The translations under genes and the position numbers were made by a program. Below the pieces are notes generated by a model. The model saw only the letters and a list, made by a program, of their open reading frames with translations, ran no database searches and had not been told where the DNA came from. This document shows, in pieces, positions 8,308 to 35,557 of a stretch of DNA of 37,296 nt (positions within the stretch are counted from its first letter, which is position 1; every line of letters begins with the position of its first letter). The stretch is from a virus, in the IMG/VR virus record IMGVR_UViG_3300032797_000272, positions 1-37,296 of that record. One strand, written 5' to 3'.

Positions 8308-8334
8308 TGCCTGCTCCTCGGTAGAAGTGACAAG

Positions 8335-9933: not shown

Positions 9934-9947
9934 TGAAATCTCCTTAG

Positions 9948-10032
9948 ACTGCAGGCTGCAGGCTGCAGGCTGCAGGGACACCCGAGTCGCCGGGTGGCTT
10001 TCCTGTAGCCTGTAGCCTGCAGCCTGCAGCCT
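9948..10032. repeat. Tandem gcaggct / gtagcct words with hairpin
   Basis: Four copies of ctgcagg on the left and copies of tgtagcc/cagcctg on the right flank cacccgagtcgccgggtgg, itself a small hairpin. The two sets of words are inverse complements. Confidence 0.85.
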
Positions 10033-10035
10033 TGC

Positions 10036-10587: not shown

Positions 10588-10596
10588 GGTAAAAGC

Positions 10597-10657
10597 AGTG
10601 ATGAGTGATGAGTGATGAGTGACAAGTGGGCTGCTCCTCACTCGTCACTTGTCACTT
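10597..10657. repeat. Tandem gtgatga words in inverted arrangement
   Basis: Three copies of agtgatg, then agtgacaagtg, face ctcactcgtcacttgtcact. The two halves are complementary. This is the spacer between two late genes. Confidence 0.85.
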
Positions 10658-12450: not shown

Positions 12451-12512
12451 AGTTCCAGGTTCCAAGTTCCAAGTTCTTCAACCTTGAACCTGGAACATGG
12501 AACCTGAAACCA
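12451..12512. repeat. Tandem gttccaa / ggaacct words
   Basis: Direct copies of aggttcc/aagttcc face copies of gaacctggaacatgg, forming a candidate hairpin between the capsid stop and the next gene. Confidence 0.82.
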
Positions 12513-15837: not shown

Positions 15838-15886
15838 CTCCAAGCTGTCAGCTCGCCCGCATTCGGGCTATCAGCTATCAGCTTTT
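15838..15886. repeat. Short agctgtc words with gcccgcattcgggc hairpin
   Basis: Copies of agctgtcagct and agctatcagct flank gcccgcattcgggc, a small perfect hairpin also found near 13503 (with t for c) and 30154. It lies in the spacer between two head genes. Confidence 0.75.
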
Positions 15887-16528: not shown

Positions 16529-16547
16529 GGCAACAGACCTGAGACCT

Positions 16548-16590
16548 GGGATGCCGCACTGCGGCATCCCACATCCCGCACCGCGGGATG
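16548..16590. repeat. Composite palindromic element, copy 2
   Basis: Hairpin B (gatgccgcactgcggcatc core, 16548-16570) is followed by hairpin A (catcccgcaccgcgggatg, 16572-16590), with gacctg(a/g)g words around it. It has the same architecture as copies at 3815-3880 and 25806-25879. Confidence 0.88.
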
Positions 16591-16658
16591 GGACCTGGGG
16601 CTAAAGGCCGGGCCTTCCCGAGCCCCCAGCCCCTAACACCTGGCCCCTGGCCCCTTCC

Positions 16659-17147
16659 TCACGGCGCGTAATAGCCCGCCACCCGCGTGCAGACGATGGT
16701 ATGGGCGATCTGGGCCGAGGGCACGAAGGTCACGGCGGTCCCCGGCACCGTCGATCGCAATCCCGTCGGATAGACCTCCGCGATCTGACGGTTCGTGGCA
16801 CTAGCGGCGCCCGCCGCGAGGATCGTGGCCAGTGACCAGACCGGACTGCCCGTCAGGTTGGTGGTGGACATGGTGGCCACGCTCGTGGTGCCAGTGATGT
16901 CGGAAGTCAAATCGATGAACACGCCGGTGATGTAAACGTACTGCCCGGCGGGCGGCGTGATGGTCACCGTGCCGTTGGCAGTGGTGGTGTTGACGGTGGC
17001 GCAGCTTGTGGCGCCGCCCAGCGAGGTCGCCAGAAAGGTAGCCGCATCCGTCCGGCTGCCGGATTGCTGGATGGCGGTGGGCGCCTGGCCGAAGGCCGCC
17101 GTGCAAACGAACGCAACGAGCAAAAGCGAAATCAGAATGTGCTTCAT
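16659..17147 (-). CDS. Secreted beta-rich protein A (162 aa, tandem paralogue)
   Basis: It starts with a clear signal peptide: MKHILISLLLVAFVCTAAFG with a likely AFG/Q cleavage. The mature part shares nearly the whole pattern of the neighbouring gene (17283-17771): SRTDAATFL near the N-terminus, then NGTVTITPPAGQYVYITGV, VATMSTTNLTGSP and the C-terminal STVPGTAVTFVPSAQ and CTRVAGYYAP. The mature proteins look alike over their whole length, so they are tandem duplicates. It lies in the head operon between the 216-aa gene and its twin. The role is unknown: export or a virion surface role are both possible. Confidence 0.8.
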   Translation of the reverse strand: MKHILISLLLVAFVCTAAFGQAPTAIQQSGSRTDAATFLATSLGGATSCATVNTTTANGTVTITPPAGQYVYITGVFIDLTSDITGTTSVATMSTTNLTGSPVWSLATILAAGAASATNRQIAEVYPTGLRSTVPGTAVTFVPSAQIAHTIVCTRVAGYYAP

Positions 17148-17169
17148 GATCGTTCTTTCTCCTTTTCGA

Positions 17170-17281
17170 GTTTCAAGCTGTCAGTTAAAAGGAGGCTACA
17201 GGCGCCAGGCTCCAGGCTCCAGGAATACCCGAGTCTCCCGTTGACTTTCCTATAGCCTGTGGCCTGTGGCCTGTGGCCTTC
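17170..17281. repeat. Tandem ggctcca / cctgtgg words between the paralogues
   Basis: Copies of ggctcca, then three copies of tggcctg, flank a gagtctcccgttgact core. This is the spacer of the duplicated secreted genes. Confidence 0.78.
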
Positions 17282-17282
17282 T

Positions 17283-17771
17283 TTACGGCGCGAAATAACC
17301 CGCCACCCGCGTGCAAAAAATCGCATGATTGGTCTGCGCGCTGGGAACGAAGGTCACTGCCGTGCCGGGCACCGTGGATTTCAGCGCAGTCGGAAATGTC
17401 TCCGAGATTTGGCGCATGGTGCCGTTGGCGCCGGCGGTCGGGACGATAGTGGCCAGCGACCAGATGGGGCTGCCGGTCAGGTTGGTGGTTGACATGGTGG
17501 CCACCTGGCTCACGCCGGTCACGTCGGCAACGATGTCGATGTAGACGCCGGTGATGTAGACGTAATTGCCGGCGGGCGGGGTGATGGTCACCGTCCCGGC
17601 GGCCGCCGTGCTGTTGACGGTGGCGCACAGGGTGGCGGCGGCCGGCGGCCCTTGCAGGAAGGTGGCCGCGTCGGTGCGGCTGCTCGATTGCTGGACGGCG
17701 GTGGGCGCCTGCCCGAAGGCTGCGAGCGAAACCAGCAAAATAACCAGAATCGAAATCACGATGTTTTTCAT
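17283..17771 (-). CDS. Secreted beta-rich protein B (162 aa, tandem paralogue)
   Basis: The start is ATG 17771. Signal peptide: MKNIVISILVILLVSLAAFG with an AFG/Q cleavage like its twin. The mature sequence has SRTDAATFLQG, AGTVTITPPAGNYVYITGV, VATMSTTNLTGSP and a C-terminal CTRVAGYFAP, matching the paralogue at 16659-17147 segment by segment, with scattered substitutions. It is upstream of it in the same operon. A conserved two-Cys pattern (early CATVN, late CTRV) may form a disulphide in the periplasm. The function is unknown. Confidence 0.8.
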   Translation of the reverse strand: MKNIVISILVILLVSLAAFGQAPTAVQQSSSRTDAATFLQGPPAAATLCATVNSTAAAGTVTITPPAGNYVYITGVYIDIVADVTGVSQVATMSTTNLTGSPIWSLATIVPTAGANGTMRQISETFPTALKSTVPGTAVTFVPSAQTNHAIFCTRVAGYFAP

Positions 17772-17817
17772 GGTCCTTCTCTCTCCTTTGTACGGCGGCC
17801 TTTCCACCGCCGGTGAA

Positions 17818-18375: not shown

Positions 18376-18894
18376 ATAGATGACGGTCACCGTTGCCGGC
18401 GCCGACGTGCCGTAGCCGCCGGAGCAGGCGAAAGTAAACTTGGTCAATTGGCCGAATCCGAGGGCGTCGGTGGCCGAGACCGCGCTGGTATAAACGCCGG
18501 TGCCTATACCGAGGCGATTGATCACCGACCAGGCGTTGATCGTGCCGGTCGTCACGGTTACGGATGCAGCGGAGCCCAAGCTCAGGTAATTCGTGCCGTC
18601 ATACGTGGTGTACATCTGAACCGTGCAGGTGGTGTAGACCCCGACGACGGTGCCGAACTTCCACTGGATCATAGCCTCGTGAGTCGAGGTGGTCGGCACC
18701 GCCGCGCTGTCGATAGTGGCGGCCAGCACGGCCACCGTCTCGCTCGACACGGTGAAGCCGGTGGGCCGCGGCTGCACCCGAACTTGGCTGTAGGCTATAG
18801 GCTGTAGGCTGTAGACCATAGCCAACAGCAGCAGGGTCACTCGCAGTTTGCGTCCTCCAGCCTCCAGCCTCCGGACTCCAGCCTCTCTCTTCAT
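18370..18894 (-). CDS. Secreted beta-sandwich-like protein (174 aa)
   Basis: The N-terminal 37 residues contain Arg-rich and hydrophobic parts (VTLLLLAMVYSLQPIAYSQ) that read as a signal peptide. The tandem words gtaggctata and cctccagcct encode it in frame, so the signal peptide is built from the phage's repeat words. The mature part is Thr/Ser/Gly-rich and beta-sheet-like: VAVLAATIDSAAVPTTSTHE, CTVQMYTTYDGTNYLSLGSA, FTFACSGGYGTSAPATVTV. It overlaps the portal gene by 4 bases (18891-18894), so translation is coupled to the portal protein. The role is unknown. Confidence 0.75.
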   Translation of the reverse strand: MKREAGVRRLEAGGRKLRVTLLLLAMVYSLQPIAYSQVRVQPRPTGFTVSSETVAVLAATIDSAAVPTTSTHEAMIQWKFGTVVGVYTTCTVQMYTTYDGTNYLSLGSAASVTVTTGTINAWSVINRLGIGTGVYTSAVSATDALGFGQLTKFTFACSGGYGTSAPATVTVIYR

Positions 18895-21305
18895 TGCATT
18901 ACTCCTTCATCGGAAAAAATCGGCATCAACTGACCCCGGCAGGCGTCGCCGCCGTCGCAATCGTCGCCGGGCGACCAGTCCACCTCGGCCAGCGATTCCC
19001 ATTCCTGGCCGTCGCCGGCGGCGCAGGCTCCGCAGGTGTTCTGGTCCATGGCCTCGGCGCGGGCGTAGCGGGCGATCTCGCCCTGGAGCTCGCCGAAGGC
19101 GGCCCAGCGGCCGCCGGTCACCGCGGCGCGCGCGGCTTCAGTGGCGATGCGGTCGAGCCAGGAGTCGGCACCGCCGGTGAGGTCGGCGAGCACGCCGGCC
19201 TCCAGCGCCTGCCCCTCGAGGCCTTTTTTGTAGGCATCTACTGCGGCCGCGCGCGCGCGGGAGGTCAGGCCGTTATTCAGATCGCTGACCGATGCCTCGG
19301 CAATCAATGTGGGCTTGTCCTGCTCCGCCGATTCCGCAAGATTCACCGCAGAGGACGCGGAGGAACGCAGAGGTTCTTGGTTTGTTTTCTCCTCTGTGTT
19401 CCTCTGCGCCCTCTGTGGTGTCACTTTTTTGCGTTCATCGTAGACGGCCTGGCGGCCATAGGCGTGGGCCACGGCCAGTGAGCGCGCCAGGCGCGAAACC
19501 ATGGCATGGGGGAACGGCAGCTCGAGTTTATCGAGCGTGGCCGGATCGTACTTGGCGACCCGCGCGGCGGCCTCACGGACCAGGGCGGGCTTGGCGGCGC
19601 GCAGGATTCGGGCGATGACCGCCGCGGTTTTATCGCTGCGGTCGGCGTGCCCATCCCAATCGTGCTTCAGCTCATGGGGCTTGAGCGCGCGCGTCAATGG
19701 CCGTCCCCCGGCCGTCGCATGTTCGGACAGCGCCGCCGGCCTGGGAACCGCTCCCTGCGTCCGCCGCGGCGGACTCTGGTCGCGGCTCTGTTGCTGCTTT
19801 CCGCCTTCGGTCTTCGGCGCAATCTGCGCAATCTGTGGCTTCGGCCCACCCTCTTCCACGGTCTGCGGATTCGCGCCTTCCTCCGTCACGCGCTGGGCGA
19901 CCGGCGCGTAGCGGATCCGCGCTTGGCCTTCTTTGAGCAATGGCATCCCAAGTTTCTTCGCGGCCCAGTTGTCGCGTTCAAGGCTTGGCTCGATCAGATC
20001 CACGTTCGCGGCCGCCACATCTTTGATCACAGCGAGCAGATCGAGGACATTCAGCACAGCAATGTGCGGGATGATCAGCTTGGGATAGGGCAGCGGTTTT
20101 CCGGGCGCGCGCGGAAAATTGAAATCCACCAGGCGCCGGATGGTGGTGCCGCTGATGGTGTCGCAGACCGAGCTGGCCAGGCCCTGCAGTGACATCTGGA
20201 AGAAATCCACCATCACGTTGCCCACCGCGCGCGAGCCGGTCTGCGTAGTGCCCAGCGTGGCGAACATGGCCAGACCGGAGCGCATGATCTGCTCCGAGCA
20301 ATGCTGGATGAACGGCAGGGGGTCGTAGATGCGGCCGTTGATGCCCTGGAAAACCATCTCCCAGCCGTTGGGCAGGGCCAGGCCGGTATTCTCGTGCGCG
20401 GCCAGGTTGGCCACCCATTGTTTGGCCGAGTCCATGTCCTCCTTCGAGGGGTTGAGCGCGGCGGTGATCTTCGGGACGCCCATGGCGTTGCGCTCGGCGG
20501 CGATCGAGGTAATGCGGTAAAGGGCCTGCTTGATGTACCAGGGCTGATAGGCGAAGCGCAGGGTCGAGATGCCGTAAAAGTTTGCGCCTTCCTGGTGCAG
20601 GGAAAACAGGGTGAACTTGTCGGCGGGGACCTTGACGTTTACGAATTGCTGGCCGCGGTAGCCCCACTGCTCGATGGACTGGAGGGTCTCGCCGTCCGGC
20701 TCGACGTGGAAGCGATAGAAGGTGAGGGGAAGCCGCGGGGCCAGGCGGCGCAGGCGCACGCGGTCGCCGTCGATGGTCCACAAGTCCTCGTGGCCGGCGC
20801 ATCCGAAATCGCAGCATAGCAGCGCGTTCTCGATCACCGACTCCCAGCGCTGGGTGAACTTCATGCCCAGGGAGTTCTCGTATTCGAGGCCGCCGAAAAG
20901 GTTTTCCTTGACGAACTTCGCTTCCTCTTTGGCCTGGTCGTAGTCCGGCTCATTTTCTTTCACGCCGGGGATGACGTCGCAGTCCGCCGAGCGGATGGGC
21001 AGCTTCTGGCACCACAGCAGGGCGGCCACATCGGCGTCGGAGCGCCGCATTTTTTCGTAGGTCATGAAAGCGTTGCGGCCGCGAAGCGTGGCGTTGTATT
21101 CCTGGAGGTCGGTGACGAAGCCGGAGACGATAGGCGTGCCCGTCGCCCCATAGCTCGACGTGTCCGGACTTTGGACTTTGGACTTTGGACTTTGGACCTC
21201 GGTCTCGGGCACGGGCGCGGATCCGGCGGGGGAAAGCAGCGGCGCCGGCGAGACGCCCGTCTCGCCCAGGCCCACCATCCTCCGGATTGTGTCCACGACG
21301 TTCAT
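18891..21305 (-). CDS. Fused portal (Mu gp29, DUF935) and head-morphogenesis (Mu gp30/F) protein (804 aa)
   Basis: The start is ATG 21305. Residues about 55-500 are portal-like: SGFVTDLQEYNATLRGRNAF, then VENEPDYDQAKEE-type helices, PRLPLTFYRFHVEPDGETL, DKFTLFSLHQEGANFYGIST and RAVGNVMVDFFQMSLQGLAS. A Pro/Gln-rich linker (about 500-570) holds translated tandem words. Residues about 570-804 are an F-like head-morphogenesis domain, ending with CGACAAGDGQEW (Cys pattern of this family) and DDCDGGDACRGQ. In Mu these are two genes; here no stop separates them. The portal forms the packaging vertex and F helps DNA injection or assembly. Confidence 0.85.
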   Translation of the reverse strand: MNVVDTIRRMVGLGETGVSPAPLLSPAGSAPVPETEVQSPKSKVQSPDTSSYGATGTPIVSGFVTDLQEYNATLRGRNAFMTYEKMRRSDADVAALLWCQKLPIRSADCDVIPGVKENEPDYDQAKEEAKFVKENLFGGLEYENSLGMKFTQRWESVIENALLCCDFGCAGHEDLWTIDGDRVRLRRLAPRLPLTFYRFHVEPDGETLQSIEQWGYRGQQFVNVKVPADKFTLFSLHQEGANFYGISTLRFAYQPWYIKQALYRITSIAAERNAMGVPKITAALNPSKEDMDSAKQWVANLAAHENTGLALPNGWEMVFQGINGRIYDPLPFIQHCSEQIMRSGLAMFATLGTTQTGSRAVGNVMVDFFQMSLQGLASSVCDTISGTTIRRLVDFNFPRAPGKPLPYPKLIIPHIAVLNVLDLLAVIKDVAAANVDLIEPSLERDNWAAKKLGMPLLKEGQARIRYAPVAQRVTEEGANPQTVEEGGPKPQIAQIAPKTEGGKQQQSRDQSPPRRTQGAVPRPAALSEHATAGGRPLTRALKPHELKHDWDGHADRSDKTAAVIARILRAAKPALVREAAARVAKYDPATLDKLELPFPHAMVSRLARSLAVAHAYGRQAVYDERKKVTPQRAQRNTEEKTNQEPLRSSASSAVNLAESAEQDKPTLIAEASVSDLNNGLTSRARAAAVDAYKKGLEGQALEAGVLADLTGGADSWLDRIATEAARAAVTGGRWAAFGELQGEIARYARAEAMDQNTCGACAAGDGQEWESLAEVDWSPGDDCDGGDACRGQLMPIFSDEGVMQ

Positions 21306-21317
21306 GTCAACCGCAGC

Positions 21318-21420
21318 GGAGCCACAGATTGCGCAGATTGCGCAGATGAGGAATCCGTAAAATCCGCGCAATCTGTGGCTCTTGTTCCGCACTCCGCACT
21401 CCACACTCCGCATTCCGCAC
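21318..21420. repeat. Tandem gcagatt, aatccg and cactccg words
   Basis: The words cagattgcg x3, then aatccg, then cactccgcactccacactccgcattccg. They fill the gap between the terminase stop and the portal start. Confidence 0.8.
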
Positions 21421-22817
21421 TAGAATTCCACTCCCGCCAGCGGCATGGGCTGCCACTCGGCGGCGCGCGCGTTGCCCACCAGGATGCCCTCGCTCAGATG
21501 CGCGCCGCGGCTGTCGGCAGCCAGGTCCGCGAGCGCCAGCGCCCAGTATTCATCGGCGTGGCCGGCATCGCTACGCACGGCATCGAACCTCAAATTCCCG
21601 CTGGCCGTGGTCTCGCGCTTGATGGCTCCGATGGCCCGCTCGAGCGCCGGACAATTCTCCGGAATCTTATCGAGCCGCTCCTCGAATCGGCGGCGCACGA
21701 TAACCGACATGGCTTCCTTGCGCTCGCCGGTGAAAGTGACGCCTTCCGCTTTTCCGCCATGTTTCTGCGCGAGCTGCTCGCAGAGCTGCATGCCCAGGCC
21801 GGTGGCATCGCCGCAGGCCCGGCGCATCTTCGGATGCTGGAGCAGCGCGTCGAGCACCTGGTACTGCTGCTCGAAAGTGGCGCGCTCGAGGGTAATCAGG
21901 CCGCGGCAGAAACCCACGTCGCCGATGCGTTCCTGGATGTAGATGGCGGTGCGATCGCGCTTGCGCCCAATATCGAATCCCGCATAGAGAGAACCCTCGA
22001 CCGGGCGCTCGGGATCCCAGTCCGCCCGCGCGCCGGGATTACGCGCTGCGGCGATCAGCTCGAGCGGGATCCACATCTCGGCGGCGCTCACGAACTGGCA
22101 GCAAAATTCCTGTTGCCAGGCTTCCTCGTCACCGGCCAGCTTGCGCAGCTCGTGAAGATCGAGCGGCACGCCGATTTTTGCGAGCTGTGGCGCGGCTGCG
22201 GTGATGTCCGTCCAATGGCAGGACCAGATGCCTTGCTGGCGGCCGGCCGGCGGGACGCCAACGCTACATCCGGCCTCGCGGGCCAGGTCGTAGTATTTGC
22301 CCTGCTGGTAGTGCGGCGTGCTGACCACCAGCAAACGATGCCCGCGCAGCGTCGAGGCCGACGCGCCTTTCCATAGCTCGTAGCTGTCGCGGTGGAAACC
22401 GAACTCATCCAGGAAGACGTTTCCGCCAAAGCCGCGCGCGGCGTCGGGATGCGCGGTGAGCGCCGTGATCTCGCTGCCATTCGGCATCTCGATCACGAAC
22501 TTATGGGCCTCGATGCCCTCGAAGAACAGCCCGCTGCCGCTTTCACGGATCGTTTTGGCTTCGTCCAGATCGGCCTCGATCTGGCGCATGGCTACGAGAT
22601 GGTTGCGAACCTCACGGATGGCTTCCTTGGCGGTATCCTGGGTGCGCGAGATAATGAGCCAGCGGGTGCGGCGGGAGGCGCAATCGAGGGCGATCTCGTA
22701 GGTGGTGGCGAAGGTGAAGCCGATGCGGCGGGCCTTGACCGCAAGCTTGTAGCGCGATTGGTCCCTGATCCAATCGCGCTGGTAGCCGGTCATGGGCACC
22801 AGGGCCTTATTCGGCAT
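21420..22817 (-). CDS. Terminase large subunit (Mu gp28-like, 465 aa)
   Basis: The start is taken at ATG 22817 (MPNKALVPM), overlapping the small terminase by 11 bases. Residues 10-45 contain YQRDWIRDQSRYKLAVKARR with a Walker A variant KARRIGFT (28-35); Walker B is NVFLDE (133-138). The C-terminal half has YAGFDIGRKRDRTAIY, the first nuclease strand with an Asp, and later DEYWALALADLAA, a second acidic site. Together they give the ATPase plus RNase-H-like nuclease of large terminases that pack DNA through the portal. The next gene is the portal fusion, as in Mu. Confidence 0.9.
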   Translation of the reverse strand: MPNKALVPMTGYQRDWIRDQSRYKLAVKARRIGFTFATTYEIALDCASRRTRWLIISRTQDTAKEAIREVRNHLVAMRQIEADLDEAKTIRESGSGLFFEGIEAHKFVIEMPNGSEITALTAHPDAARGFGGNVFLDEFGFHRDSYELWKGASASTLRGHRLLVVSTPHYQQGKYYDLAREAGCSVGVPPAGRQQGIWSCHWTDITAAAPQLAKIGVPLDLHELRKLAGDEEAWQQEFCCQFVSAAEMWIPLELIAAARNPGARADWDPERPVEGSLYAGFDIGRKRDRTAIYIQERIGDVGFCRGLITLERATFEQQYQVLDALLQHPKMRRACGDATGLGMQLCEQLAQKHGGKAEGVTFTGERKEAMSVIVRRRFEERLDKIPENCPALERAIGAIKRETTASGNLRFDAVRSDAGHADEYWALALADLAADSRGAHLSEGILVGNARAAEWQPMPLAGVEF

Positions 22818-23394
22818 CCGCTTCGCTGAGACCATACACATCCAAAATCTTGCGGCGGAGATCCGGCGAGATCGACTCCCCGGCCTTCTCCACCGCTTCC
22901 TTGGCTTGCCCTGCCTGTTTCCTGATGGCCGCCAGTTTCGTTTTCATGCTCTCGAATTTCTCGCGGTCCAGCGCCAGGCGCGCGCTCTGCTGTTCGAGCG
23001 CGGCGCGCTTCAGCCGGATTTTTTCGGCCTCCAGGTTGGCCCACTGCACGTTCACCGCGTCCGCGCCGGTGAATGATTCGGGATCCTCCATCAGAGCCTG
23101 CGTCGCCAAGGCCTGGATCAATTCTGAGGCCGTGCCCGGCACCGCTTTGGCGGCTTCCAGCATAGCGATGGACTGTTCGCGGGCCGCCGCCCGCCGGCAT
23201 TTATCGGCCTCCAGCGCGCGCAGTTCCCGGCTGACCGTCCGTTCGCTGATGGCCGCGCATTCCTCCTCGCCCAACAGCTCGATCAGATCGCGGTGGACGG
23301 CGGCGGCCGTTTTCCCGGCGCGGAAACCATCGGCGATTGCCCGCCGGGCGTGCTCGGCCAATTGATCGACCTTCTTATGCACCCGCCTGCTCAT
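22807..23394 (-). CDS. Small terminase-like protein, DUF3486 / Mu gp27 (195 aa)
   Basis: The N-terminus is helix-turn-helix-like (VDQLAEHARRAIADGFRAGK, then AAVHRDLIELLGEEEC and ISERTVSRELRALE). It is followed by long helices with LEAEKIRLKRAALEQQSARL, ending in ISPDLRRKILDVYGL. In Mu-like phages this family pairs with the large terminase, and the gene order matches. It overlaps the small gene upstream (23391) and the terminase start. The helical C-terminus may contact the large subunit. Confidence 0.85.
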   Translation of the reverse strand: MSRRVHKKVDQLAEHARRAIADGFRAGKTAAAVHRDLIELLGEEECAAISERTVSRELRALEADKCRRAAAREQSIAMLEAAKAVPGTASELIQALATQALMEDPESFTGADAVNVQWANLEAEKIRLKRAALEQQSARLALDREKFESMKTKLAAIRKQAGQAKEAVEKAGESISPDLRRKILDVYGLSEADAE

Positions 23395-23576: not shown

Positions 23577-23921
23577 CTACTCGAAATCAATTCCCGGATC
23601 CGCCGGGATGTTGCGGTCCACCAGGTCCTGGCCCTTGGGCGTCAATTTCACGGCGATGATATCGCTGGGCCGGCCGGCGCCGATCTTTGCGCGCTGGCGG
23701 TCATAGCCCGGTATGTCCTTGCGCCGCTGCAGAGTTGTGTACTCTTTGCCCGCCAGGTAATCGAGCGGCCGGCCGAGTTCACGCGCCGATAGGGAAACAC
23801 CCAGCGTATCGAGCGTGCGCAGGAGCAGGCCGAAACTCATGGCCGAGCCCAGGGCGCCGTTGTCGCTCAGCACCTGGAGGATGCGGCCACGCTGCCACTG
23901 TTCCGTTCGCGCCATCGTCAT
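23577..23921 (-). CDS. VpaChn25_0724-like phage protein, Mu gp26 position (114 aa)
   Basis: It has a winged-helix-like layout: QWQRGRILQVLSDNG, then MSFGLLLRTLDTLGVSLSAR, ELGRPLDYLAGKEYTTLQRR, and a C-terminal beta hairpin IIAVKLTPKGQDLVDRNI. This fits the VpaChn25_0724 family found at this place in Mu-like phages, before the small terminase. The family lacks a clear function; wing and helix suggest DNA or protein contact. The start overlaps the stop of the upstream gene by 4 bases (23918-23921). Confidence 0.75.
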   Translation of the reverse strand: MTMARTEQWQRGRILQVLSDNGALGSAMSFGLLLRTLDTLGVSLSARELGRPLDYLAGKEYTTLQRRKDIPGYDRQRAKIGAGRPSDIIAVKLTPKGQDLVDRNIPADPGIDFE

Positions 23922-24421
23922 GCGTTCTCTCCTCGCGCTCCGGTTGCGCCGGTCGCCCCGGTTGCGCCGGTTTCGCCGGTTGCGCCGGTTTCGCCGGTTG
24001 CGCCGGTCTCGCCCCGAGCTCCGGACGGTCCCATGGGCCCGATCAATCGGACGTCGCCGTGCATCGCTTCGATTTTTCCGCTCAGCCGCTCGATCTGCCC
24101 GGATAGCGCGCGGCAGGCGGCTCGAACGTCATCCTCGCTCGTAAATCGCTCCGAAATCACTGCCGCTAATTTGCCTTGCGAGCTAGCCATGTCGCGGATG
24201 GCGCCGATGGCCGGGCCGGCGTGGCGGTCGAGCAAAAACCCGCCCAGCCCAATCACCAGAAGCGCCGGGCCCCAGTTGGTTATTTGCGCCACCACCTGCG
24301 GCGATCCTTGCAGCAGCGCCATCACCGCCGCGCCGATACCGATGCCGGCGGCGCCGGCGCCCACCGCCTTGGTCGCCGCCGCGGTCTTGCCGTTCTCCGG
24401 TTTCGCTGTTGCATCAGCCAT
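23918..24421 (-). CDS. Membrane protein with coiled coil and collagen-like tail (167 aa)
   Basis: The N-terminal half has two hydrophobic stretches: about residues 20-42 (GAGAAGIGIGAAVMALL) and 50-65 (WGPALLVIGLGGFLL). A helical region (EDDVRAACRALSGQIERLSG) follows, then a Gly-x-y tail from about residue 126: GPMGPSGARGETGATGET, with repeated GAT/GET triplets and an Arg. The collagen-like tail would trimerise; at DNA level it is the ccggttgcgccggtttcg repeat around 23941-24020. A role in lysis, adsorption or anchoring is possible. No family is recognised. Confidence 0.7.
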   Translation of the reverse strand: MADATAKPENGKTAAATKAVGAGAAGIGIGAAVMALLQGSPQVVAQITNWGPALLVIGLGGFLLDRHAGPAIGAIRDMASSQGKLAAVISERFTSEDDVRAACRALSGQIERLSGKIEAMHGDVRLIGPMGPSGARGETGATGETGATGETGATGATGATGARGENA

Positions 24422-24777: not shown

Positions 24778-25503
24778 CTAGAGCTTCAAGCCGAGGGTCA
24801 CGCTCAGCATCGGCTGGTAGTCGCCCAGGCTCGATTTGTATATGCGCACCAGGGGCACGATCGACCACTTGCTTCCGGGCTTCAGAGGGATGGGCGCCAT
24901 GGCTCCGCCGGTCCAAGTCCAGCCTAGGTTGGTGCCAGAAGCCGAAGCCCCAACGGCCACCAGGCCCAGAATATGCGTGCCGCCGAACTGGTGGAGGTCT
25001 CGCGCGATCCCGGTGGAGACCGAGGCGTCCACGACAAACGGCCGGAAGTTTTTGCTGGTGATATCCATGAGCCAGATGTTGTAGTTATTGGGAGTGAGGT
25101 CGAGCAGGCCCCAGGCCAGGCCGGTGACCGGCGGGCGGACCTGCTGGTTGAAGCTGGCGCCGGCGCCGACCATCGACGGGCTTGCCGCCATCTGGGCGCG
25201 TGCGCTCACCGCGGAGGCGCACAAGAGGCAGAGCAAAACCAGCGGCAGCTTGGCCTTCGGCAGCACCCCGCGAATGAACTCCTCGAATTTGGCGAAGCGC
25301 GCGGCATCGGCGGCCACGATCAGTCCCGCACCGATCAGGATGAAGTGCACGTTGGCCGCCAGGTAGCCGGCGATGCTTCCGGGCGCCTGCCAGCCTCCGG
25401 CGGGATCGTAGCCAATGCCGACGCAGAGCAGCCCGCCGAGCACTTTCATCAGCACGCCGACACCGGCGATGGTAGTCGCGTAATTCTTCAGCCAGCCTCT
25501 CAT
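24778..25503 (-). CDS. Membrane protein with internal signal and beta-rich C-terminus (241 aa)
   Basis: The start is ATG 25503, with ggagagg upstream. Its ATG overlaps the TGA of the amidase gene (ATGA). The N-terminal part contains TM stretches about residues 5-30 (TTIAGVGVLMKVLGGLL) and 45-65 (VHFILIGAGLIVAADA). A second hydrophobic part LPLVLLCLLCASAVSARAQ (residues about 84-102) looks like an internal signal peptide. After it comes a beta-strand-rich segment ending VTLGLKL, which resembles a small outer-membrane barrel. This could be a fused lysis membrane protein and envelope protein. No family is recognised. Confidence 0.6.
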   Translation of the reverse strand: MRGWLKNYATTIAGVGVLMKVLGGLLCVGIGYDPAGGWQAPGSIAGYLAANVHFILIGAGLIVAADAARFAKFEEFIRGVLPKAKLPLVLLCLLCASAVSARAQMAASPSMVGAGASFNQQVRPPVTGLAWGLLDLTPNNYNIWLMDITSKNFRPFVVDASVSTGIARDLHQFGGTHILGLVAVGASASGTNLGWTWTGGAMAPIPLKPGSKWSIVPLVRIYKSSLGDYQPMLSVTLGLKL

Positions 25504-26296
25504 ATATTTTCCTCTCCGGTTTTCTCCGCGCCCTCCGCGCCCTCTGCGGTGAAATGTTTTCCGATGGTCGCAGCGATCGCTTCGCAAATCTCCAGCTTGA
25601 TTTTCGTGTCAATGAGTGACGGGTAATCCACCGAGGAATCTATGAATCCCAACTCGATGAGTATGGAAGGATCGAAAGCGAGCACGGCCAGGCGGGGGCG
25701 CTCGACCACGCCGGCGCCGTGCGGCGGGATGATAGGCTTGAGCGCATCGGAAACGGCGCGGGCAATCGCCGCGCTGCGCTTGGTGCGCCATAGAACTTCG
25801 TGACCTGAGACCTGGGAGCTGGGATGCCGCGGTGCGGCATCCCATCCCGCACTGCGGGATGGGACTTTGGACTTTGGACTTCTTCCGGTGCCGCGTTGCA
25901 GTGCAGCGAAATCAGCAGATCAGCTTTGGCGCGCTTGGCGATGCGCGCGCGCTCGAGCAGGCGGCAGGGTTTGCTCTGGTCGGTGCGCGTGAGTTGCGTC
26001 CGGAACCCGCGCTGGCTCAACGCGGAATCCAGTGCATAGGCGTACTGCAAAGCGATTTCCGCCTCGGTGGCTTCGACCTGCTTGCGGCCCCTGGTGTCGC
26101 GCGACCAGCGCACGGCACCGGGATCGAAGCGCCCGGCATCGAGCTTGCCATGGCCGGCATCGATCACGATGAGGCCGGAGGCTGGAGGCTGGAGCCTGGA
26201 GGGAAGAAGACCGGGAGCGGATTGCTCCGCCCCCGGCTGAGGGCCGGTAGCCCGGCCCGTGGGCGCCTTCATCGGCGACTGGTCCTGTTCACTCAT
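25500..26296 (-). pseudogene. N-acetylmuramoyl-L-alanine amidase (endolysin) disrupted by a 74-bp insertion
   Basis: Amidase_3 features are clear. N-terminal domain from about residue 42: IVIDAGHGKLDAG (Zn His), VEATEAEIALQYAYAL (Glu), LLISLHCNAAP (His). The frame after NAAPEE is interrupted by the palindromic element (25806-25879). Past it, a different frame continues with GHEVLWRTKRSAAIARA and ILIELGFIDSS (catalytic Glu). Removing 74 bases joins APEE to GHEVLW in frame, as expected of the intact enzyme. The intact form would cut the peptidoglycan stem for lysis. The product is probably truncated, or rescued only if the element is bypassed. The N-terminal linker is translated tandem word (RLQPPASGL). 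Confidence 0.85.
25806..25879. repeat. Composite palindromic element, copy 3, inside the amidase gene
   Basis: Hairpin B (25821-25843) and hairpin A (25843-25861), flanked by gacctggg and actttgg words: the same composite structure as copies 1 and 2. Its 74 bases shift the amidase frame. This is direct evidence that the element arrives by insertion. Confidence 0.88.
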
Positions 26297-27193: not shown

Positions 27194-27688
27194 CTAAAAC
27201 GGCACCCCGTCCAACGTCTCGGTCGGCCGCCATGTTTTCAATTCCTCCCGGATCTCGGTCTTGCTTTTCCCGGCTTTACGCGCGCCAATGTTCATCAGGG
27301 CCTCGATGGCGCGCCAGCACTGTTGCCGGCTGAGGGCGGTGGGGTACTCCACGCGAAAAAGTTTCCGCAGCAGACCGGCCAGGCGCGCGCGGTTGTCGGC
27401 CCATCCCAGCCACTTTTCGAGCTGGCGGATTTTCCAGAGCTGCGCGTCGCTGGGGGTGCCGGCGCGGTCGCCGCGGGCAATTTCCTTAATGCAGAAGACT
27501 AACTCCGCGTCGCTACAATCATTGGCGGAACTTACTGGACGGCCGATTTTCAGGGCCATCCACGCCAGTCGCTCGGCGCGGGATTTGGCGGCGCCGCTGA
27601 CCGGACAGTATTCGCGCCAGGCGGCCATGAAGTGCCGTAAAAGGCGCCGAGTGATGAGTGATGAGTGATGAGTGACGAGTTCAGGCAT
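27194..27688 (-). CDS. GemA/Mu gp16-like regulatory protein (164 aa)
   Basis: The start is taken at ATG 27688, with ggagg 5 bases upstream, so the word-derived MPELVTHHSSLITRRL is translated. Helical segments: CSDAELVFCIKEIARGDRAG, then TPSDAQLWKIRQLEKWLGW, LAGLLRKLFRVEY and QQCWRAIEALMNIGAR. The later half (Q-x-x-K-I-R-x-L-x-x-x-L-G-W, then the 'A-x-x-x-I-E-A-L' helix) follows the GemA / DUF1018 pattern known from Mu gp16, an early regulatory gene. The first half is unlike typical members, so I rate it moderate. Confidence 0.6.
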   Translation of the reverse strand: MPELVTHHSSLITRRLLRHFMAAWREYCPVSGAAKSRAERLAWMALKIGRPVSSANDCSDAELVFCIKEIARGDRAGTPSDAQLWKIRQLEKWLGWADNRARLAGLLRKLFRVEYPTALSRQQCWRAIEALMNIGARKAGKSKTEIREELKTWRPTETLDGVPF

Positions 27689-27928: not shown

Positions 27929-29692
27929 TTACTCCAGAAAGAGAATGTCCCTGGCCCGAATCATGCCGCCGCCCAGGTACTCGATCAGGCCGAGCGAGCG
28001 CAGCCGCCCGCGCGGGTTGTTGTAGGCCCCGCCGTCTGGAGCGTATCTGGCCTCTCCCGCGCAATCGTCGTTCGAGATGCTGTCGGGGTAGTGATTCAGG
28101 ATCACGCGGAGGATCTTGCTTTCAGGGCCGGGCAACCTGTCGATGATGGCTTGGTGCAATGCCGCCGTGGTGAGCGGCGTTTCGGGCTCAGCCGCACACC
28201 CGCGTCCCTCGGGAGTCAAGCGCATAAAGTTCGACCCGACGTATTCGATCAAGCCCTTGGTTCGGAGCGCGCCACACGGATTATTGAATGCTCCGCCGCC
28301 GAAGGTGTAGCCGGCCAGAAAGGCCACGGCGGTCCGCTCGGGCTGATCAACGCCGATGGTCTCCATCCAAGCGATAGCGTCGAGAATGCGATGCTCCGGG
28401 CCGGTTAACTGGCCGTCATTGATAGGGGGATGTGGGACCGGGGACCTGCGACCTGAGGGAAAACTGACCTTGGACCTGGGACCTGGGACCTGCGCCGGAG
28501 CCGGAGGCCGGGATGGTGTTGAGGCGGGCGCCGTTGGGATGGCGCCGATCAGCGGCTGCATCGCCTCGATCCAACCCATCATGGTTCTGGCCTGCTCTCG
28601 CAACCCCGACAGTCTCCGCTCCAGTTCGCGCAGCAATTTCCGATTCGCTTCGGCCGATTCGTGGGCCGCTTTCTCATGTCCCTCGTGCCAAGCCTTCTTG
28701 ACCGCCTCGGGATCGGCGGCTGGCGCGGCTTTCGGCGCGATGGCCGCGGCGCGCTTCAATTCCGCGATTTGCCGGCGGAGTTCCTTGGGATCTTCGGCCT
28801 TGGCGCGCTCGATGGTGGCCGCCATCTCTTTTCGGATGCGGTCCAGATCAATCGGCGCCAGTTCCCGCGCTACCGCCGCTGTGCCGACCTGCGGGGTGCT
28901 GGAAGCGTTGAAGGTGTCCTTCTTGCCGATGTTGATGGTTTTGGAAATCTGCAACCACTGCGGACTCCAGACGTGCGCCTGGCCGACCGCGAGTTTAGGA
29001 AGGAACCCGGCAACGTCCAGGTCCAACCCTTTTTCCTCGATCCAGGATTCGATGGCCTTGCGCTCGTGGGGGCCGGTCATCTGAAAGGCGAAGAGGCATT
29101 CCGTTTGGTTCAGGGCCTTCTTATTGACCTCTTGGGGGCGCTGCGAGATCAGAGAAACGCCGATACCGAAGTTGCGGCCGAGTTTTTCCATGCGCTGAAA
29201 GGCGTGCAGCATGTGCTCCTCGCCTTTCTGCGGGTTCTGCGGGATCAGTTCCTGGCATTCTTCGATGAAGACGTGGACCGCCGATGGCGCGGCCTTCTTG
29301 CGGAAATAGAAGCGGCTGGCCCAATCCATTCCGAAGCGGGCTTTGTCGGAATCGTGCTCGAATTGGCTGATGTCCAGGACCATCGAGAGCCCGCGGTCCA
29401 CGATCAGATCCGCCATCAACTCGCCGCCCCTGGATTCCAGCGGCACGTCGCCATGCAGGCCGCCGAAAACCGGAACAGCCAAGCCGGGGGCCTTGCCGTC
29501 CGCGGCCAGCCGGATTCCGTACCACACGCCCACGGCGTCCAGGATCACTACCTGGGCCTTGGCCAGCAGCATTTCCTCGGCAAGTTTGCTGGCGGCATAC
29601 GTTTTTCCGGACCCAGTGCGCCCGAGGAAGGCGAACTTCTGGGTAACCGCATCGAGCGGCAGCGCCAGGTCGGGACTGATTTTCAAGGTCAT
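27929..29692 (-). CDS. HerA/FtsK-superfamily ATPase with two C-terminal winged-helix repeats (587 aa)
   Basis: The start is ATG 29692. Walker A is GRTGSGKT (24-31), Walker B VFIEE (141-145), and the conserved SQRP segment is at 183-186, in the order of HerA-type DNA-translocating ATPases. A helical middle (about 290-375) follows. The C-terminus contains two related winged-helix units, each about 70 aa: LTGPEHRILDAIAWME and LPGPESKILRVILNHY, each ending with R-x-K-G-L-I-E-Y or R-S-L-G-L-I-E-Y. In Mu this position does not carry such a protein, so it is accessory: it may act on phage or host DNA. A linker with tandem words (PGPRSKVS) lies between. Confidence 0.8.
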   Translation of the reverse strand: MTLKISPDLALPLDAVTQKFAFLGRTGSGKTYAASKLAEEMLLAKAQVVILDAVGVWYGIRLAADGKAPGLAVPVFGGLHGDVPLESRGGELMADLIVDRGLSMVLDISQFEHDSDKARFGMDWASRFYFRKKAAPSAVHVFIEECQELIPQNPQKGEEHMLHAFQRMEKLGRNFGIGVSLISQRPQEVNKKALNQTECLFAFQMTGPHERKAIESWIEEKGLDLDVAGFLPKLAVGQAHVWSPQWLQISKTINIGKKDTFNASSTPQVGTAAVARELAPIDLDRIRKEMAATIERAKAEDPKELRRQIAELKRAAAIAPKAAPAADPEAVKKAWHEGHEKAAHESAEANRKLLRELERRLSGLREQARTMMGWIEAMQPLIGAIPTAPASTPSRPPAPAQVPGPRSKVSFPSGRRSPVPHPPINDGQLTGPEHRILDAIAWMETIGVDQPERTAVAFLAGYTFGGGAFNNPCGALRTKGLIEYVGSNFMRLTPEGRGCAAEPETPLTTAALHQAIIDRLPGPESKILRVILNHYPDSISNDDCAGEARYAPDGGAYNNPRGRLRSLGLIEYLGGGMIRARDILFLE

Positions 29693-29710
29693 ATTTTCGT
29701 GCCTCAAATC

Positions 29711-31200: not shown

Positions 31201-31707
31201 CTAAGTTTTTTCCGCCAGGTCGCCGAGGGCATCCAAATCGGGCTTGGCGTAAAACGTCTCGCCGCGCTCGACACGGATCCCGCAGCGGTCGAACATTTCC
31301 TCGCATTCCTCGGCGGCGTCCAGGACCGCCTCTTTATGGAGCGTGAGCCTCTGGCGGACGAATTCGCCATGCCCTTCGGCCCCCAGGGCGATGATGGCGG
31401 TGGCCTCGGTCCAGCCGCGAATGAACTCGACGGCCCGGCGCGCGCGTAGCCCGATGGCGCCGAAGGTCAATTTCAGCGAGCGCGCCTTGGGGCCCAGCGT
31501 TTTGCGTTCCTCGAGGAAAAACGCTTGTAGCGCTTCCTCGATCGTGGCGCGCTCGATGGGCATCTTGCCGGCATCCTCAGTGGCGGCATCTTTCGCCGCC
31601 TGTATACGCGTATTCATCGCCGCCTCGATCCGCGCCATCCGGATCTCGATCTCGCCCAGGCGGCGCAACAGTTGATCGGCCGCCTCCCTATTTCGTGGTG
31701 TGATCAT
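31201..31707 (-). CDS. gam: Gam-like host-nuclease inhibitor (168 aa)
   Basis: The N-terminus has long helices REAADQLLRRLGEIEIRMAR and EEALQAFFLEERKTLGPKAR, then the conserved L-x-L-T-F-G-A-I-G-x-R segment (SLKLTFGAIGLR, about residues 82-93), and a beta/helix C-terminus ending ERGETFYAKPDLDAL. This is the Mu Gam layout: a dimer that binds DNA ends and blocks RecBCD-type nucleases. Its start overlaps the stop of the 49-aa gene by 4 bases. It is an early gene, as in Mu. Confidence rests on the family motif and context. Confidence 0.85.
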   Translation of the reverse strand: MITPRNREAADQLLRRLGEIEIRMARIEAAMNTRIQAAKDAATEDAGKMPIERATIEEALQAFFLEERKTLGPKARSLKLTFGAIGLRARRAVEFIRGWTEATAIIALGAEGHGEFVRQRLTLHKEAVLDAAEECEEMFDRCGIRVERGETFYAKPDLDALGDLAEKT

Positions 31708-32145: not shown

Positions 32146-32222
32146 TAGCTGAAAGCTGTCAGCTATCAGCTATCAGCTTTCAGCTTTTCGCCTTCTGCCT
32201 ACTGCCTTCTGCCTTCTGCCTA
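32146..32222. repeat. Tandem agctgtc/agctatc then ccttctg words
   Basis: agctgtcagctatcagctatcagctttcag runs into gccttctgcctactgccttctgcc. It fills the gap between the MuB-like gene stop and the zinc-ribbon gene. Confidence 0.82.
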
Positions 32223-33254
32223 CCGGCCCTTCATGCCCCACAAAAACCCCGCCAGATCGGCAATGGTCTTTTCCGTGATCTTCCGGCCCGCATGCTTCGA
32301 GCGGATCAGATCGATCGAGGCCAGCAACGTGCGCATCGACCCGCCCACGGCCTTGTACCAGGTCACGAAAGCCTCGTCGGCCACCTCCGTGATCCCTTCC
32401 TGCTTCACGACGTAGGCCATCTCATCGCGCGTGAATCCGGAGAGGACCGCCGTGGGCCAGATGCGCGAGCGGATGGCGCCGAGCTGCTGTGAACGCGAGC
32501 CGTGCATGCGCAACCAGAGATCCGGCGCGGCCAGCACCGCGAAATTCGCCCCGGCCAGGCGCACCGCGTCCCATAGCTCCCGGACCAGCCCAAACACGCG
32601 CGGAGTAAGCGATTCGGCTTGGTCCAGGATGATGAGTCTGGGCGTGGCGCGCAGGTCGGCGACAATGCGGCGGAACAGGGCCATGGATGTGCCGCCGGTC
32701 TCGAGGCCCAGCTCGCCGGCAATGGCGCGGAGGAACTCGAGCCGGTGCCCGCCCATCAGGGAGATCACTTCGATGGACACGGCCTCATCGCGGTGCTTCG
32801 CAAGCCAGCGGGTGACCGCCTCGGTTTTGCCCACACCGTAGTTGGCAACGATCATGCCGATGGATTCGTGCTCGAGTGCGTAATCGAGCACGTCCCAGAT
32901 GGCGCGCGGGGTCGCCAATTCGTAGAAATTCCGCACTCCGCATTCCGCACTCCGCACTCGCCGCGGCCTTGCCGCGTAATCCGCTTCCGTGAGGGCATCG
33001 CCGCCGGGGCGGAGGAGCTGGCCGCTCTCGACCAGGCGCACGACCCGCTCCACTTCCGTGAGCGTTTCCGCCGTATCGGCGTTGGTGCCGTAGTACCAGC
33101 AGGTGAAGGTTTTCGCGCTGATATTGGCCATGGCCTGGGCCAGGCCGCGCAGGCTCAGGTCCGGCCGCGCCGCAAGCAAGTCGATGATCCGCCTGCGCAG
33201 CGCCTCGGCGCTGGCTTTCCGGGTTGCCTCGCTTGTGCTCTGCATGATTGCCAT
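32220..33254 (-). CDS. MuB-like target-selection ATPase (344 aa)
   Basis: The N-terminal HTH (LRGLAQAMANISAKTFTCWY, about residues 36-55) is the MuB-type DNA-binding domain. AAA+ part: Walker A ANYGVGKT (137-144), Walker B LIILDQAE (207-214), an Arg-containing sensor region, and a C-terminal helical domain (SMRTLLASIDLIRSKHAGRK). MuB activates the transposase and marks target DNA. A translated tandem word (RRVRSAECGVRNFYE) lies between HTH and ATPase. It is downstream of the transposase gene as in Mu; the gap is 20 bp. Confidence 0.88.
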   Translation of the reverse strand: MAIMQSTSEATRKASAEALRRRIIDLLAARPDLSLRGLAQAMANISAKTFTCWYYGTNADTAETLTEVERVVRLVESGQLLRPGGDALTEADYAARPRRVRSAECGVRNFYELATPRAIWDVLDYALEHESIGMIVANYGVGKTEAVTRWLAKHRDEAVSIEVISLMGGHRLEFLRAIAGELGLETGGTSMALFRRIVADLRATPRLIILDQAESLTPRVFGLVRELWDAVRLAGANFAVLAAPDLWLRMHGSRSQQLGAIRSRIWPTAVLSGFTRDEMAYVVKQEGITEVADEAFVTWYKAVGGSMRTLLASIDLIRSKHAGRKITEKTIADLAGFLWGMKGR

Positions 33255-33274: not shown

Positions 33275-35557
33275 CTACCCCTGGAAAAACCGAAACTCCC
33301 CGTCATCCTCATCGGCACCGAGAGCCGGCGGTGGAATCGCCAGTTCCACCGCCGGCCCGGTGTTCTCCGACGTGAGCGCGATTGAGGACGCGCGGGAGAA
33401 ACTGAAATTCGCATCCGCGGCCGCCGCCGCCTGCTGGATCGCCTCCGGAAGTTGCATTCCGCCTTCCGCCTTCCGCCTTCCGCCTTCCGGCAATGCCGCC
33501 CGCGCCGCCTCCCGCCGCCGCGCTCGCTCCTCGACCGGGGCTACTTCCCCGGTCTGAATCGCGGCGATGAAATCCCTGATGGTTTTCAGCGCCGAGCGCC
33601 GATCGCGCTCATCCTGCACGAACGATTCCTCGCCCATCCGCGAAAGCTCGACTGAGTCGCAGAGGCCGAGAAACCGGCCTTCGGCGTAGATCGCGCCGGT
33701 GCCGAGATCGTGCTCGTCATAGGCGAATTCCACCTGGCGGTCGTTGTAGAGCATCAAGCTCTGGCTGTCGCCGCGGAATCGGTAGTGATATTGCCGGCCG
33801 GCGAACATGGGCCGAATCTCGCCCTGGCGCACGGTGAGCAGGCGGCGCCGGTGGAAGGCGAATTGGAGTACGGCGGGATCCGCGCTGCGCCGATCGATGC
33901 CCTGGACGAGTTGCACCCAGCATTCATCGGGACTGAGCCAGGCCCGGCCCTGTGGCACGGCTTTCTCCATTCCGCGGCCTTCCAGCGGGCGCTGGTTCAG
34001 CGTGGTCAGCGCCTCGTCGTAGAGCCAGGCGGCGTACTCGATGGTGAATGGTGCACCGCGATCATCAATGAATGCCGGGTGTTCCCGCTTGCCCTTCATC
34101 CATAGTTCGTGCTCGTGGACCATGCGCGTGAATCGCTCCGGGCGGGCCTGGGGCTTGTGCCCGCACCACCAGGGCAGGGTGCGGTCGAAATTCGAGAGGC
34201 GCAGGAAATTCGGCTCGATGATCTTGCTGTGCGGCCGGAACGGCAGGGCGTGCTTTACGCGCGCGCCGAGTGAATCCATCACACCGCGCATGGCCAGGGG
34301 CAGGCCATCGATTTTTGATCCGCGAGAATCAGCGGAATCCGCGGATTGATTTCCCTCCAGGTATTCGCATCTGAAGTCCTTGCCGTTATCCCAGTAGAAC
34401 GTCGTCACACAGCGGCCGTCGCGGTAGAGCAGGCCGTGATCGAGGATGGCGCGCTTGATGCAGGCGGCGATGCTGTCGCTCGATGGCACCAGGCAGACGA
34501 TCCAGGCCAGCCATCGCCGGGTCCGCATGTCGATGGCCGCCGTCAGCCAGGGCCGGAGCAGGCGCCAGGGTTTCGCCGGATCGCGGGTCATGCAGAAAAA
34601 ATCCGCCAGGCGATGGTCCATCACGATGTATTCCAGGGGATCGAGCGCGGCCAGGTCCCGCTGGGTGACCAGGGCCTGGCGGTTGAAATAATCCTGGTCG
34701 CCGCGCGCCGCCACATCCTTTATTACTGCCGGGATTTTGGCGGCCCACAGGCGGAATGTCTCGTAGGAAGCCTGGGGCAGCGGCTCGGCGGAATCGGGGT
34801 GACCGGCGCGCCAGGCCCGTTCTTCCTCGTAGCAGCGGTAGACCTCGCGGACGGTCATTTCGCCGCGGCCGGGTTTGCCGTTGCGAGGATCCGCCGGCGC
34901 CGGCAGCAATGCCGCGGCGATATAGTGCTGCGCCGCCGGCGTGAGCACTCGAGCGCGGCCTTTATCGTTGCGATCGCGGTTGGCCAGGCCGGCCAGGTTT
35001 CGCTCCTGCCACTGTTGGATCCAGCGGTACAGCGTGCGCGCCGGGGTCTTGTGCTGGGCGGCCAGGAAGGCGACCAGCGCACCTTTTCCGGCGAACTGCC
35101 GCCATAGCGCCTGATGCCGCTCGGGGGCCACTAGCGGCTCGATGATGGCGTAGCGACGGTCGGCGACGGCGCGGTCCTCCGGGCTGAGCGAGCTGGCCAG
35201 AGGCGCCGGCAGCGCCAGCGGGAGCTGGTCCGACAGAGCCGCGACCGGAGCGCGATGCGTAGTCTGCTCCGCGCGGGAGGGAGCGGTTCCCTCTCCCAGC
35301 AGCCGCCGTACCTCATCCTCGCCCACCAGCACCTCGCGCATGATCGTGGGGTTGCCTCCATCGAGCTTGCCCCAACCATGCGTCGCCAGCCATTTCTGGC
35401 GCGGTTTCTCGGGCAGTGTGGAGAGTTGGTACATCGGCTGCGCGCGCCCGTTGCGGCCCTTCGCACCGGGGACGGATTTGAGGCGCTTCTCGATCCACCG
35501 CATCGACCAGCCGGTGACCCGGGCCACTTCATCCTTCGTCAGCAGTTTCTCTCTCAT
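33275..35557 (-). CDS. MuA-like DDE transposase (760 aa)
   Basis: The N-terminal winged HTH is residues 1-50 (TKDEVARVTGWSMRWIEKRL), then a second HTH (HKTPARTLYRWIQQWQERNL, 169-188). Catalytic RNase-H-like core: Asp 314 (IVMDHRLADF), Asp 390 (FYWDNGKDF) and Glu 448 (HSKIIEPNF), in the order of MuA D-D-E. The C-terminal beta barrel/helical part is about 560-700. Two repeat-word insertions are in frame: NQSADSADSRG (about 403-413) and a C-terminal EGGRRKAEGG. Reaction: nicking and joining of phage ends to target DNA, for integration and replication. Its start overlaps the CII-like stop by 4 bases. Confidence 0.93.
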   Translation of the reverse strand: MREKLLTKDEVARVTGWSMRWIEKRLKSVPGAKGRNGRAQPMYQLSTLPEKPRQKWLATHGWGKLDGGNPTIMREVLVGEDEVRRLLGEGTAPSRAEQTTHRAPVAALSDQLPLALPAPLASSLSPEDRAVADRRYAIIEPLVAPERHQALWRQFAGKGALVAFLAAQHKTPARTLYRWIQQWQERNLAGLANRDRNDKGRARVLTPAAQHYIAAALLPAPADPRNGKPGRGEMTVREVYRCYEEERAWRAGHPDSAEPLPQASYETFRLWAAKIPAVIKDVAARGDQDYFNRQALVTQRDLAALDPLEYIVMDHRLADFFCMTRDPAKPWRLLRPWLTAAIDMRTRRWLAWIVCLVPSSDSIAACIKRAILDHGLLYRDGRCVTTFYWDNGKDFRCEYLEGNQSADSADSRGSKIDGLPLAMRGVMDSLGARVKHALPFRPHSKIIEPNFLRLSNFDRTLPWWCGHKPQARPERFTRMVHEHELWMKGKREHPAFIDDRGAPFTIEYAAWLYDEALTTLNQRPLEGRGMEKAVPQGRAWLSPDECWVQLVQGIDRRSADPAVLQFAFHRRRLLTVRQGEIRPMFAGRQYHYRFRGDSQSLMLYNDRQVEFAYDEHDLGTGAIYAEGRFLGLCDSVELSRMGEESFVQDERDRRSALKTIRDFIAAIQTGEVAPVEERARRREAARAALPEGGRRKAEGGMQLPEAIQQAAAAADANFSFSRASSIALTSENTGPAVELAIPPPALGADEDDGEFRFFQG

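Follow-up and report, generated by a model that had tools for sequence, protein, structure and literature searches.

Inside the predicted endolysin gene of the virus record IMGVR_UViG_3300032797_000272 lies a short repeat that puts the second half of the gene out of frame. The question that this locus raises, and makes testable, is whether such repeats serve a phage as a source of protein loops and on/off switches or are damage only; a further question is whether the host or the phage is their maker. The window referred to throughout is the whole stretch of DNA that was analysed, 37,296 bases of that record.

The phage and its split amidase gene

Judged by gene content, the window is a Mu-like transposable phage: a transposase, a MuB-like ATPase, Gam, GemA (with a match that scored below its curated cut-off) and Mu-type head genes were all matched in Pfam or PHROGs, and a head protease and a major head protein were also recognised. 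The genes placed by profile match are:

33275-35557, transposase
32220-33254, MuB-like gene
31201-31707, Mu Gam-like gene
27194-27688, GemA (weak match)
21420-22841, TerL
18891-21413, portal

The TerL protein shares 53-56% identity with TerL of prophages from two Acidobacteria MAGs (L020 and L021) and 71% with that of a 17,145-bp viral contig, IMGVR_UViG_3300031999_003892 (L011/L013/L110; hereafter, the relative), and an acidobacterial host, among soil bacteria, is therefore likely.

Elsewhere in the window, an ORF of 592 aa (27929-29707) gave weak matches to HerA/TrwB-type ATPases and carries an in-frame heptamer array at 28465-28496. A tandem duplication of ~530 bases (16639-17165 and 17263-17789, 74-78% identical) yields two similar ORFs, 16659-17147 and 17283-17807. 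The small protein encoded at 23918-24421, with tail-fibre-like PHROG matches and a collagen-like Gly-X-Y repeat at its C end, shows length differences of 21 and 45 nt relative to its counterpart in the relative.

The locus of interest is an Amidase_3 gene on the minus strand, running from 26296 to 25500 and split by about 74 bases:

25877-26296, minus strand, amidase N half, frame 0, with the GHG, Glu and SLH zinc-ligand motifs (Amidase_3 profile positions 1-81, E 1e-17)
25806-25879, inserted composite repeat, extending to about 25802-25881 by similarity to its other copies and to the heptamers
25500-25802, minus strand, amidase C half with the catalytic Glu (ELGFID), frame shifted by -1 (Amidase_3 profile positions 98-172, E 1.3e-4)
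25640-26296, minus strand, the ORF as it stands, 218 aa, off the amidase frame after residue 139-140
24778-25503, minus strand, downstream ORF of about 241 aa with hydrophobic N-terminal segments, in a holin-like position

The original prediction, made from the letters of the DNA, described this gene as an endolysin amidase broken by a mobile palindromic element. Its identification of the enzyme holds: the two halves match Pfam Amidase_3 in the correct order along the profile, the C-half match taken alone being under the curated cut-off, and the N half matches endolysins in PHROGs. The near-invariant positions of the family (H11, E40, H94 and E161 in a 22-row alignment) are all present and, as had been expected of the four catalytic positions, are distributed over both sides of the insert, with H11, E40 and H94 in the N half and E161, the catalytic Glu, in the C half on another frame; the zinc-ligand His, Glu and His and the catalytic Glu are assigned by prediction from the family alignment columns.

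No single continuous amidase frame was found, the frame shifting at the insert. The amidase sequence in frame 0 reaches NAAPEE, and the remainder, from GHEVLW to the TGA, sits one base back. Joining the flanks of 25806-25879 makes the passage from NAAPEE to GHEVLW continuous, as predicted, in one open frame that extends from the ATG at 26296 to the TGA at 25500-25502 without a stop. Since the insert is stop-free in all three minus-strand frames, the gene is broken by frameshift and not by an internal stop. The C half includes the peptide stretch AVSDALKPIIPPHGAGVVERPR. Its separate translation was considered and rejected: the first start, a GTG at 25709, lies deep in the conserved part, and the complete C half would therefore not be made. 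As far as the sequence goes, the locus is best named a split amidase gene, rather than an active amidase.

The predicted product is a truncated protein of 218 aa without the catalytic Glu. Among the window ORFs scanned with Pfam and PHROGs, many of whose proteins match nothing, no second lysis enzyme was recognised, and with the catalytic Glu lost as well, the insertion should cripple lysis. The C-frame stop overlaps the ATG of the downstream ORF (ATGA) in the window and the relative alike. That ORF, which matched no family, may encode a holin or other lysis partner, and because translation of the ORF as it stands ends at 25640, ~137 nt short of the ATGA overlap, its coupled expression could drop too.

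The inserted repeat

Read on the plus strand, the insert consists of a heptamer array, two hairpins that share TCCCA and a second array of GGACTTT units (three in all). The parts of the insert and its other copies in the window are:

25802-25823, heptamer array that flanks the hairpins on one side (GACCTGA GACCTGG GAGCTGG)
25820-25844, hairpin 1, TGGGATGCCGC/GCGGCATCCCA (from RNA fold and copy comparison)
25840-25864, hairpin 2, TCCCATCCCGCA/TGCGGGATGGGA, with perfect 12-bp arms (from RNA fold)
25862-25881, heptamer array on the other side of the hairpins (GGACTTT GGACTTT GGACTT; family D18), its unit also found in the portal gene at 21163-21202
16535-16602, plus strand, copy B, upstream of the start of ORF 15878-16567
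3816-3879, minus strand, copy C, between ORFs 2464-3807 and 4021-4479

Copies B and C follow the same plan as the insert (copy A), to which they are 85% (E 5e-17) and 88% (E 2e-18) identical, respectively, and both are located at or between gene ends; the inserted bases thus are, as originally supposed, a composite palindrome found elsewhere in the phage. Copy A exceeds copy B by one heptamer on one side. The two adjoining hairpins, with arms of 11-12 bp, form a short-hairpin dimer of the kind by which REP elements are recognised, and RNA folding places both in the centroids of all copies (for the insert, centroid -31.5 kcal/mol, shuffle z -2.5). Stem feet read TGGGA/TCCCA in A and B and TTGGA/TCCAA in C; in each hairpin a single change is mirrored across the pair, and the feet track the neighbouring heptamer (GACCTGG or GACTTTG). 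These paired changes suggest that the hairpins formed from, or were corrected together with, the heptamer array. Co-changing feet and heptamers at 25820-25864, 16547-16590 and 3824-3864 also hint at template switching between array and hairpin.

The ends of the insert are blurred because the heptamer AAGTCC shares bases with the last Glu codons, as GGTC does with the codons for Gly-His. Removal of exactly 74 bases, as first proposed, does restore the frame, but this length is not unique: anything from 68 nt (between two GTC triplets) to 80 nt is equally defensible, every such length being 2 mod 3. The word mobile likewise needs qualification. The relative lacks the element both in its amidase and where the window has copy B, and intragenic arrays differ in unit or presence at matching sites, but the copies are 12-15% diverged and neither a transposase nor a target duplication is tied to them; going by presence and absence at matching sites, the repeat may be mobile.

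The position of the hairpins brings up recoding, in which ribosomes would slip by -1 at A_AAG (CCA AAG), immediately ahead of the hairpins, and go on translating through the insert and the C half. The shift required is indeed -1, the -1 frame is open across the insert to the C half, and the fold downstream is a stable one. However, the X_XXY_YYZ heptamer of programmed -1 frameshifting is absent, the A_AAG comes with the heptamer anyway, and the stem begins ~1 base past the candidate site. The usual spacers between a frameshift site and its stem exceed this distance. Recoding is, on these grounds, very unlikely.

Searches beyond the window recovered heptamers rather than the composite repeat. 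In IMG/VR, searched by protein, flank pattern and palindrome pattern, there was no close relative with the insert and no related phage with the same 74 bases in a continuous frame. The exact palindrome pattern was absent from IMG/VR and found in 0 of 396 Acidobacteriota genomes. This amidase was found neither in those genomes (E <= 1e-20) nor among INPHARED phages, both searches being run without a positive control. BLAST against 297 Acidobacteriota genomes gave hits in five, confined almost entirely to the heptamers; GGACTTT arrays are present in acidobacterial genomes, some of them as inverted pairs.

Heptamer arrays, selection and the state of the amidase

The window contains 34 period-7 and 9 period-9 arrays, against none in 30 dinucleotide shuffles, and no arrays of period 6 or 8; related phage contigs (L011, L014, L015 and L017) have 12-17 period-7 arrays per 10 kb. 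Arrays also lie within the amidase, portal, MuB and transposase genes:

26170-26202, minus strand, heptamer array, in frame, within the N-terminal linker of the amidase; the relative has another heptamer there, likewise in frame
25522-25549, minus strand, period-9 array in the C-terminal tail of the amidase, where the relative has an AGCT heptamer array
21163-21202, minus strand, the insert's own heptamer (GGACTTT unit), in frame in the portal ORF and encoding EVQSPKSKVQSP
32928-32960, minus strand, heptamer array within the MuB-like gene, in frame, where the relative has another heptamer
33453-33492, minus strand, in-frame heptamer array in the transposase; the matching stretch is non-repetitive in the relative
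34326-34347, minus strand, period-9 array within the transposase, in frame, with none in the relative

Apart from the amidase insert, all intragenic arrays examined keep their frame, which leaves the insert as the sole frame-breaking case among them. The portal array could sit in a leader, should translation start later, because the portal profile match begins near there (residue 74). In MuB, a GTGCGGA-type array of 33 nt in the window and a GGAAGGC-type array of 51 nt in the relative occupy the same residues, both in frame, and the relative has AGCT-type heptamer arrays where the window has copy B. These differences show repeat turnover between the window and the relative.

Inverted pairs of heptamer arrays a few bases apart were also observed (8322-8394, 9945-10033, 10594-10657 and 12451-12503, with exact inverted matches of 10-19 nt); they are possibly two-way terminators or RNA stabilisers at gene ends, and similar pairs occur in the acidobacterial genomes L105 and L107.

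Comparison with the sole close relative found bears out the break, its amidase being continuous and free of the insert. The two amidases are 74% identical over the core of the N half and 84% identical in the C half. With one relative only, so that substitutions are not assignable to a branch, dN/dS is 0.217 for the N half and 0.089 for the C half, the lowest among the genes compared (0.167 to 0.382 for eight others). The C half differs by 29 synonymous and 11 nonsynonymous changes, and its mismatches are distributed 8/4/28 over codon positions 1/2/3 of its own frame. Had the window branch been unconstrained throughout, ~65 nonsynonymous changes would be expected (by simple arithmetic from dS, with half of the divergence on each branch), compared with the 11 seen in total; a 95% Poisson limit of ~18 changes or fewer leaves room for an unconstrained period of no more than about one quarter of that branch. 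Estimated in this way, the substitutions show strong purifying selection on both amidase halves, and the dN/dS and codon-position pattern rule out an old pseudogene or long decay. The amidase tails of the window and the relative are unrelated repeats, and the ATGA overlap is kept nonetheless. Together, the low C-half dN/dS and the kept overlap imply that the gene lost its frame recently or reversibly, or that the consensus is in error; the C frame would have been the working frame until recently, or still is.

The site of the insert is, judged from the family alignment, a loop of variable length in this lineage, next to a zinc ligand. The stretch from SxHxNA to GxE has 6 residues in 32 of 34 distant relatives and 13 in the relative, where an 11-residue acidic stretch without a repeat, DDDEPGDPEGH, stands at the insert site; in the window it would have 4 residues without the 74 bases and 6 (APEEVS) without 68.

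This last length bears on translational bypassing over the hairpin, the escape that the original prediction had left to the ribosome. A hop from GTC to GTC would skip 68 nt and leave a loop of the usual family length. That length is, however, equally explained as the pre-insertion site, and GTC occurs in every heptamer of its type, so that the match of codons is expected by chance. In T4 gene 60, a stop codon directly follows the take-off codon (PMC5009743); none is next to the take-off codon here, and frame 0 is open through the insert. Nothing at the locus speaks positively for bypassing, and we consider it extremely improbable.

We favour the reading, at a probability of roughly 0.58, that the amidase is off in this genome, caught in a recent state in which a repeat that settles in tolerant loops and linkers breaks the frame. 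Repeats of this kind would keep arising and changing length in phage and host DNA, and selection would retain those within genes when they are in frame, in loops and linkers. The amidase repeat lies in a predicted loop that separates SLHxNA, the third of the zinc-ligand motifs, from the GxE strand that follows; its length of 2 mod 3 takes translation out of the amidase frame, leaving the catalytic Glu missing. The element presumably entered, or altered its length, recently. It may have arrived out of frame in a single step, or in frame (as 60 or 81 nt, for example) before changing in length by a heptamer or two; the second course would square the divergence between the copies with the conservation of both amidase halves. 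Counting against a dead amidase, the conservation of the C half is equally expected of a protein that is still expressed, and the phage would be left without any recognised lysis enzyme.

The same conservation is among the points in favour of an assembly or consensus error, in which the insert is real but its length is off by a base or a heptamer, the true gene being in frame with a longer loop. The genome is known from one assembled record, and it would take no more than one consensus error in a hairpin or heptamer to restore the frame: perfect hairpins with tandem heptamers are difficult for short reads and assemblers, all other intragenic arrays examined are in frame, 74 + 7 = 81 is in frame, and the insert is open in all three frames. 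Yet the whole element is below typical short-read length, and no other gene among those compared with the relative is broken. Such an error is the first-ranked rival and, in our judgement, unlikely.

Phase variation ranks second and -1 frameshifting third. A phase-variable amidase would be toggled in the phage population by gain of one heptamer, loss of two, or loss of the whole insert; because seven is not divisible by three, the number of units sets the frame. Length changes of this sort are in keeping with the single-heptamer difference between copies A and B and with the unequal MuB arrays, and heptanucleotide slippage is known in the prophage-borne neuO (PMC9659370). On the other hand, ~3 units per side are few for fast slippage, no variant is seen in the one assembled record, and a lysis enzyme would be an odd target; phase variation is accordingly rated as quite improbable. 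Taking heptamer gain or loss together with a hairpin-driven -1 shift, we doubt that the insert is a reversible switch by which only a fraction of the amidase is active per population or infected cell. If it were, the switch would belong to a lineage of phages in which heptamer and hairpin repeats routinely reshape the genes.

Comparison with known repeat systems

Palindrome insertions in genes, heptamer arrays and in-gene tandem repeats are each already known. The literature searched contained no phage genome that such repeats, heptamers and hairpins, had remodelled and in which a lysis gene was out of frame, nor did the part of it covered describe heptamer repeats in Acidobacteriota or their phages. 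With Amidase_3 phage endolysins the present enzyme shares the catalytic motifs and a PHROG endolysin match; it differs in being split by an out-of-frame insert.

Rickettsia palindromic elements (RPE) are a family of short palindromic repeats located inside unrelated protein-coding genes (PMC10969869), and the insert resembles them, by description, as a palindromic repeat family sitting within genes. RPE are about 150 bp long and mostly in frame, whereas the insert has ~74 bp, with two hairpins in heptamer arrays, and lies out of frame in a phage gene. REP elements are short GC-rich hairpins tagged with GTAG/CGTC, some of them intragenic, and RAYT genes occur in Acidobacteria (PMC3733652). The insert has in common with them GC-rich short hairpins in pairs, two-sided changes of stem pairs and intragenic copies, but its hairpins have no GTAG or CGTC tag beside them in copies A, B and C, are flanked by heptamer arrays and are seen in only three copies. 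GTAG-tagged REP-like palindromes (GTAGGGGCGGGTTTCAAACCCGCCCCTAC) were observed in viral contigs with a related terminase:

L018, 3214-3236, 7452-7480, 8282-8310 and 13314-13342
L015, 7064-7091

The TAACTGA heptamer direct repeats of Beggiatoaceae and Cyanobacteria form interspersed short arrays (PMC4679880), and in both cases short arrays of a 7-base unit occur in many copies per genome; the phage, in contrast, has many different units, often as inverted pairs and also within genes. Borg elements contain many independent tandem-repeat arrays, some of them intragenic (PMC9879509). They too are extrachromosomal elements with arrays inside genes that differ between relatives, but the unit lengths of Borg intragenic arrays are divisible by three, whereas in the phage the units have 7 (or 9) bases, and the reading frame either survives through the total array length or is lost. 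As a rule, short palindromic and heptamer repeats are viewed as intergenic features of bacterial chromosomes; in this phage, they are abundant, lie inside essential genes and have units swapped at the same sites between related phages, and one of them puts a lysis gene out of frame while both of its halves stay conserved.
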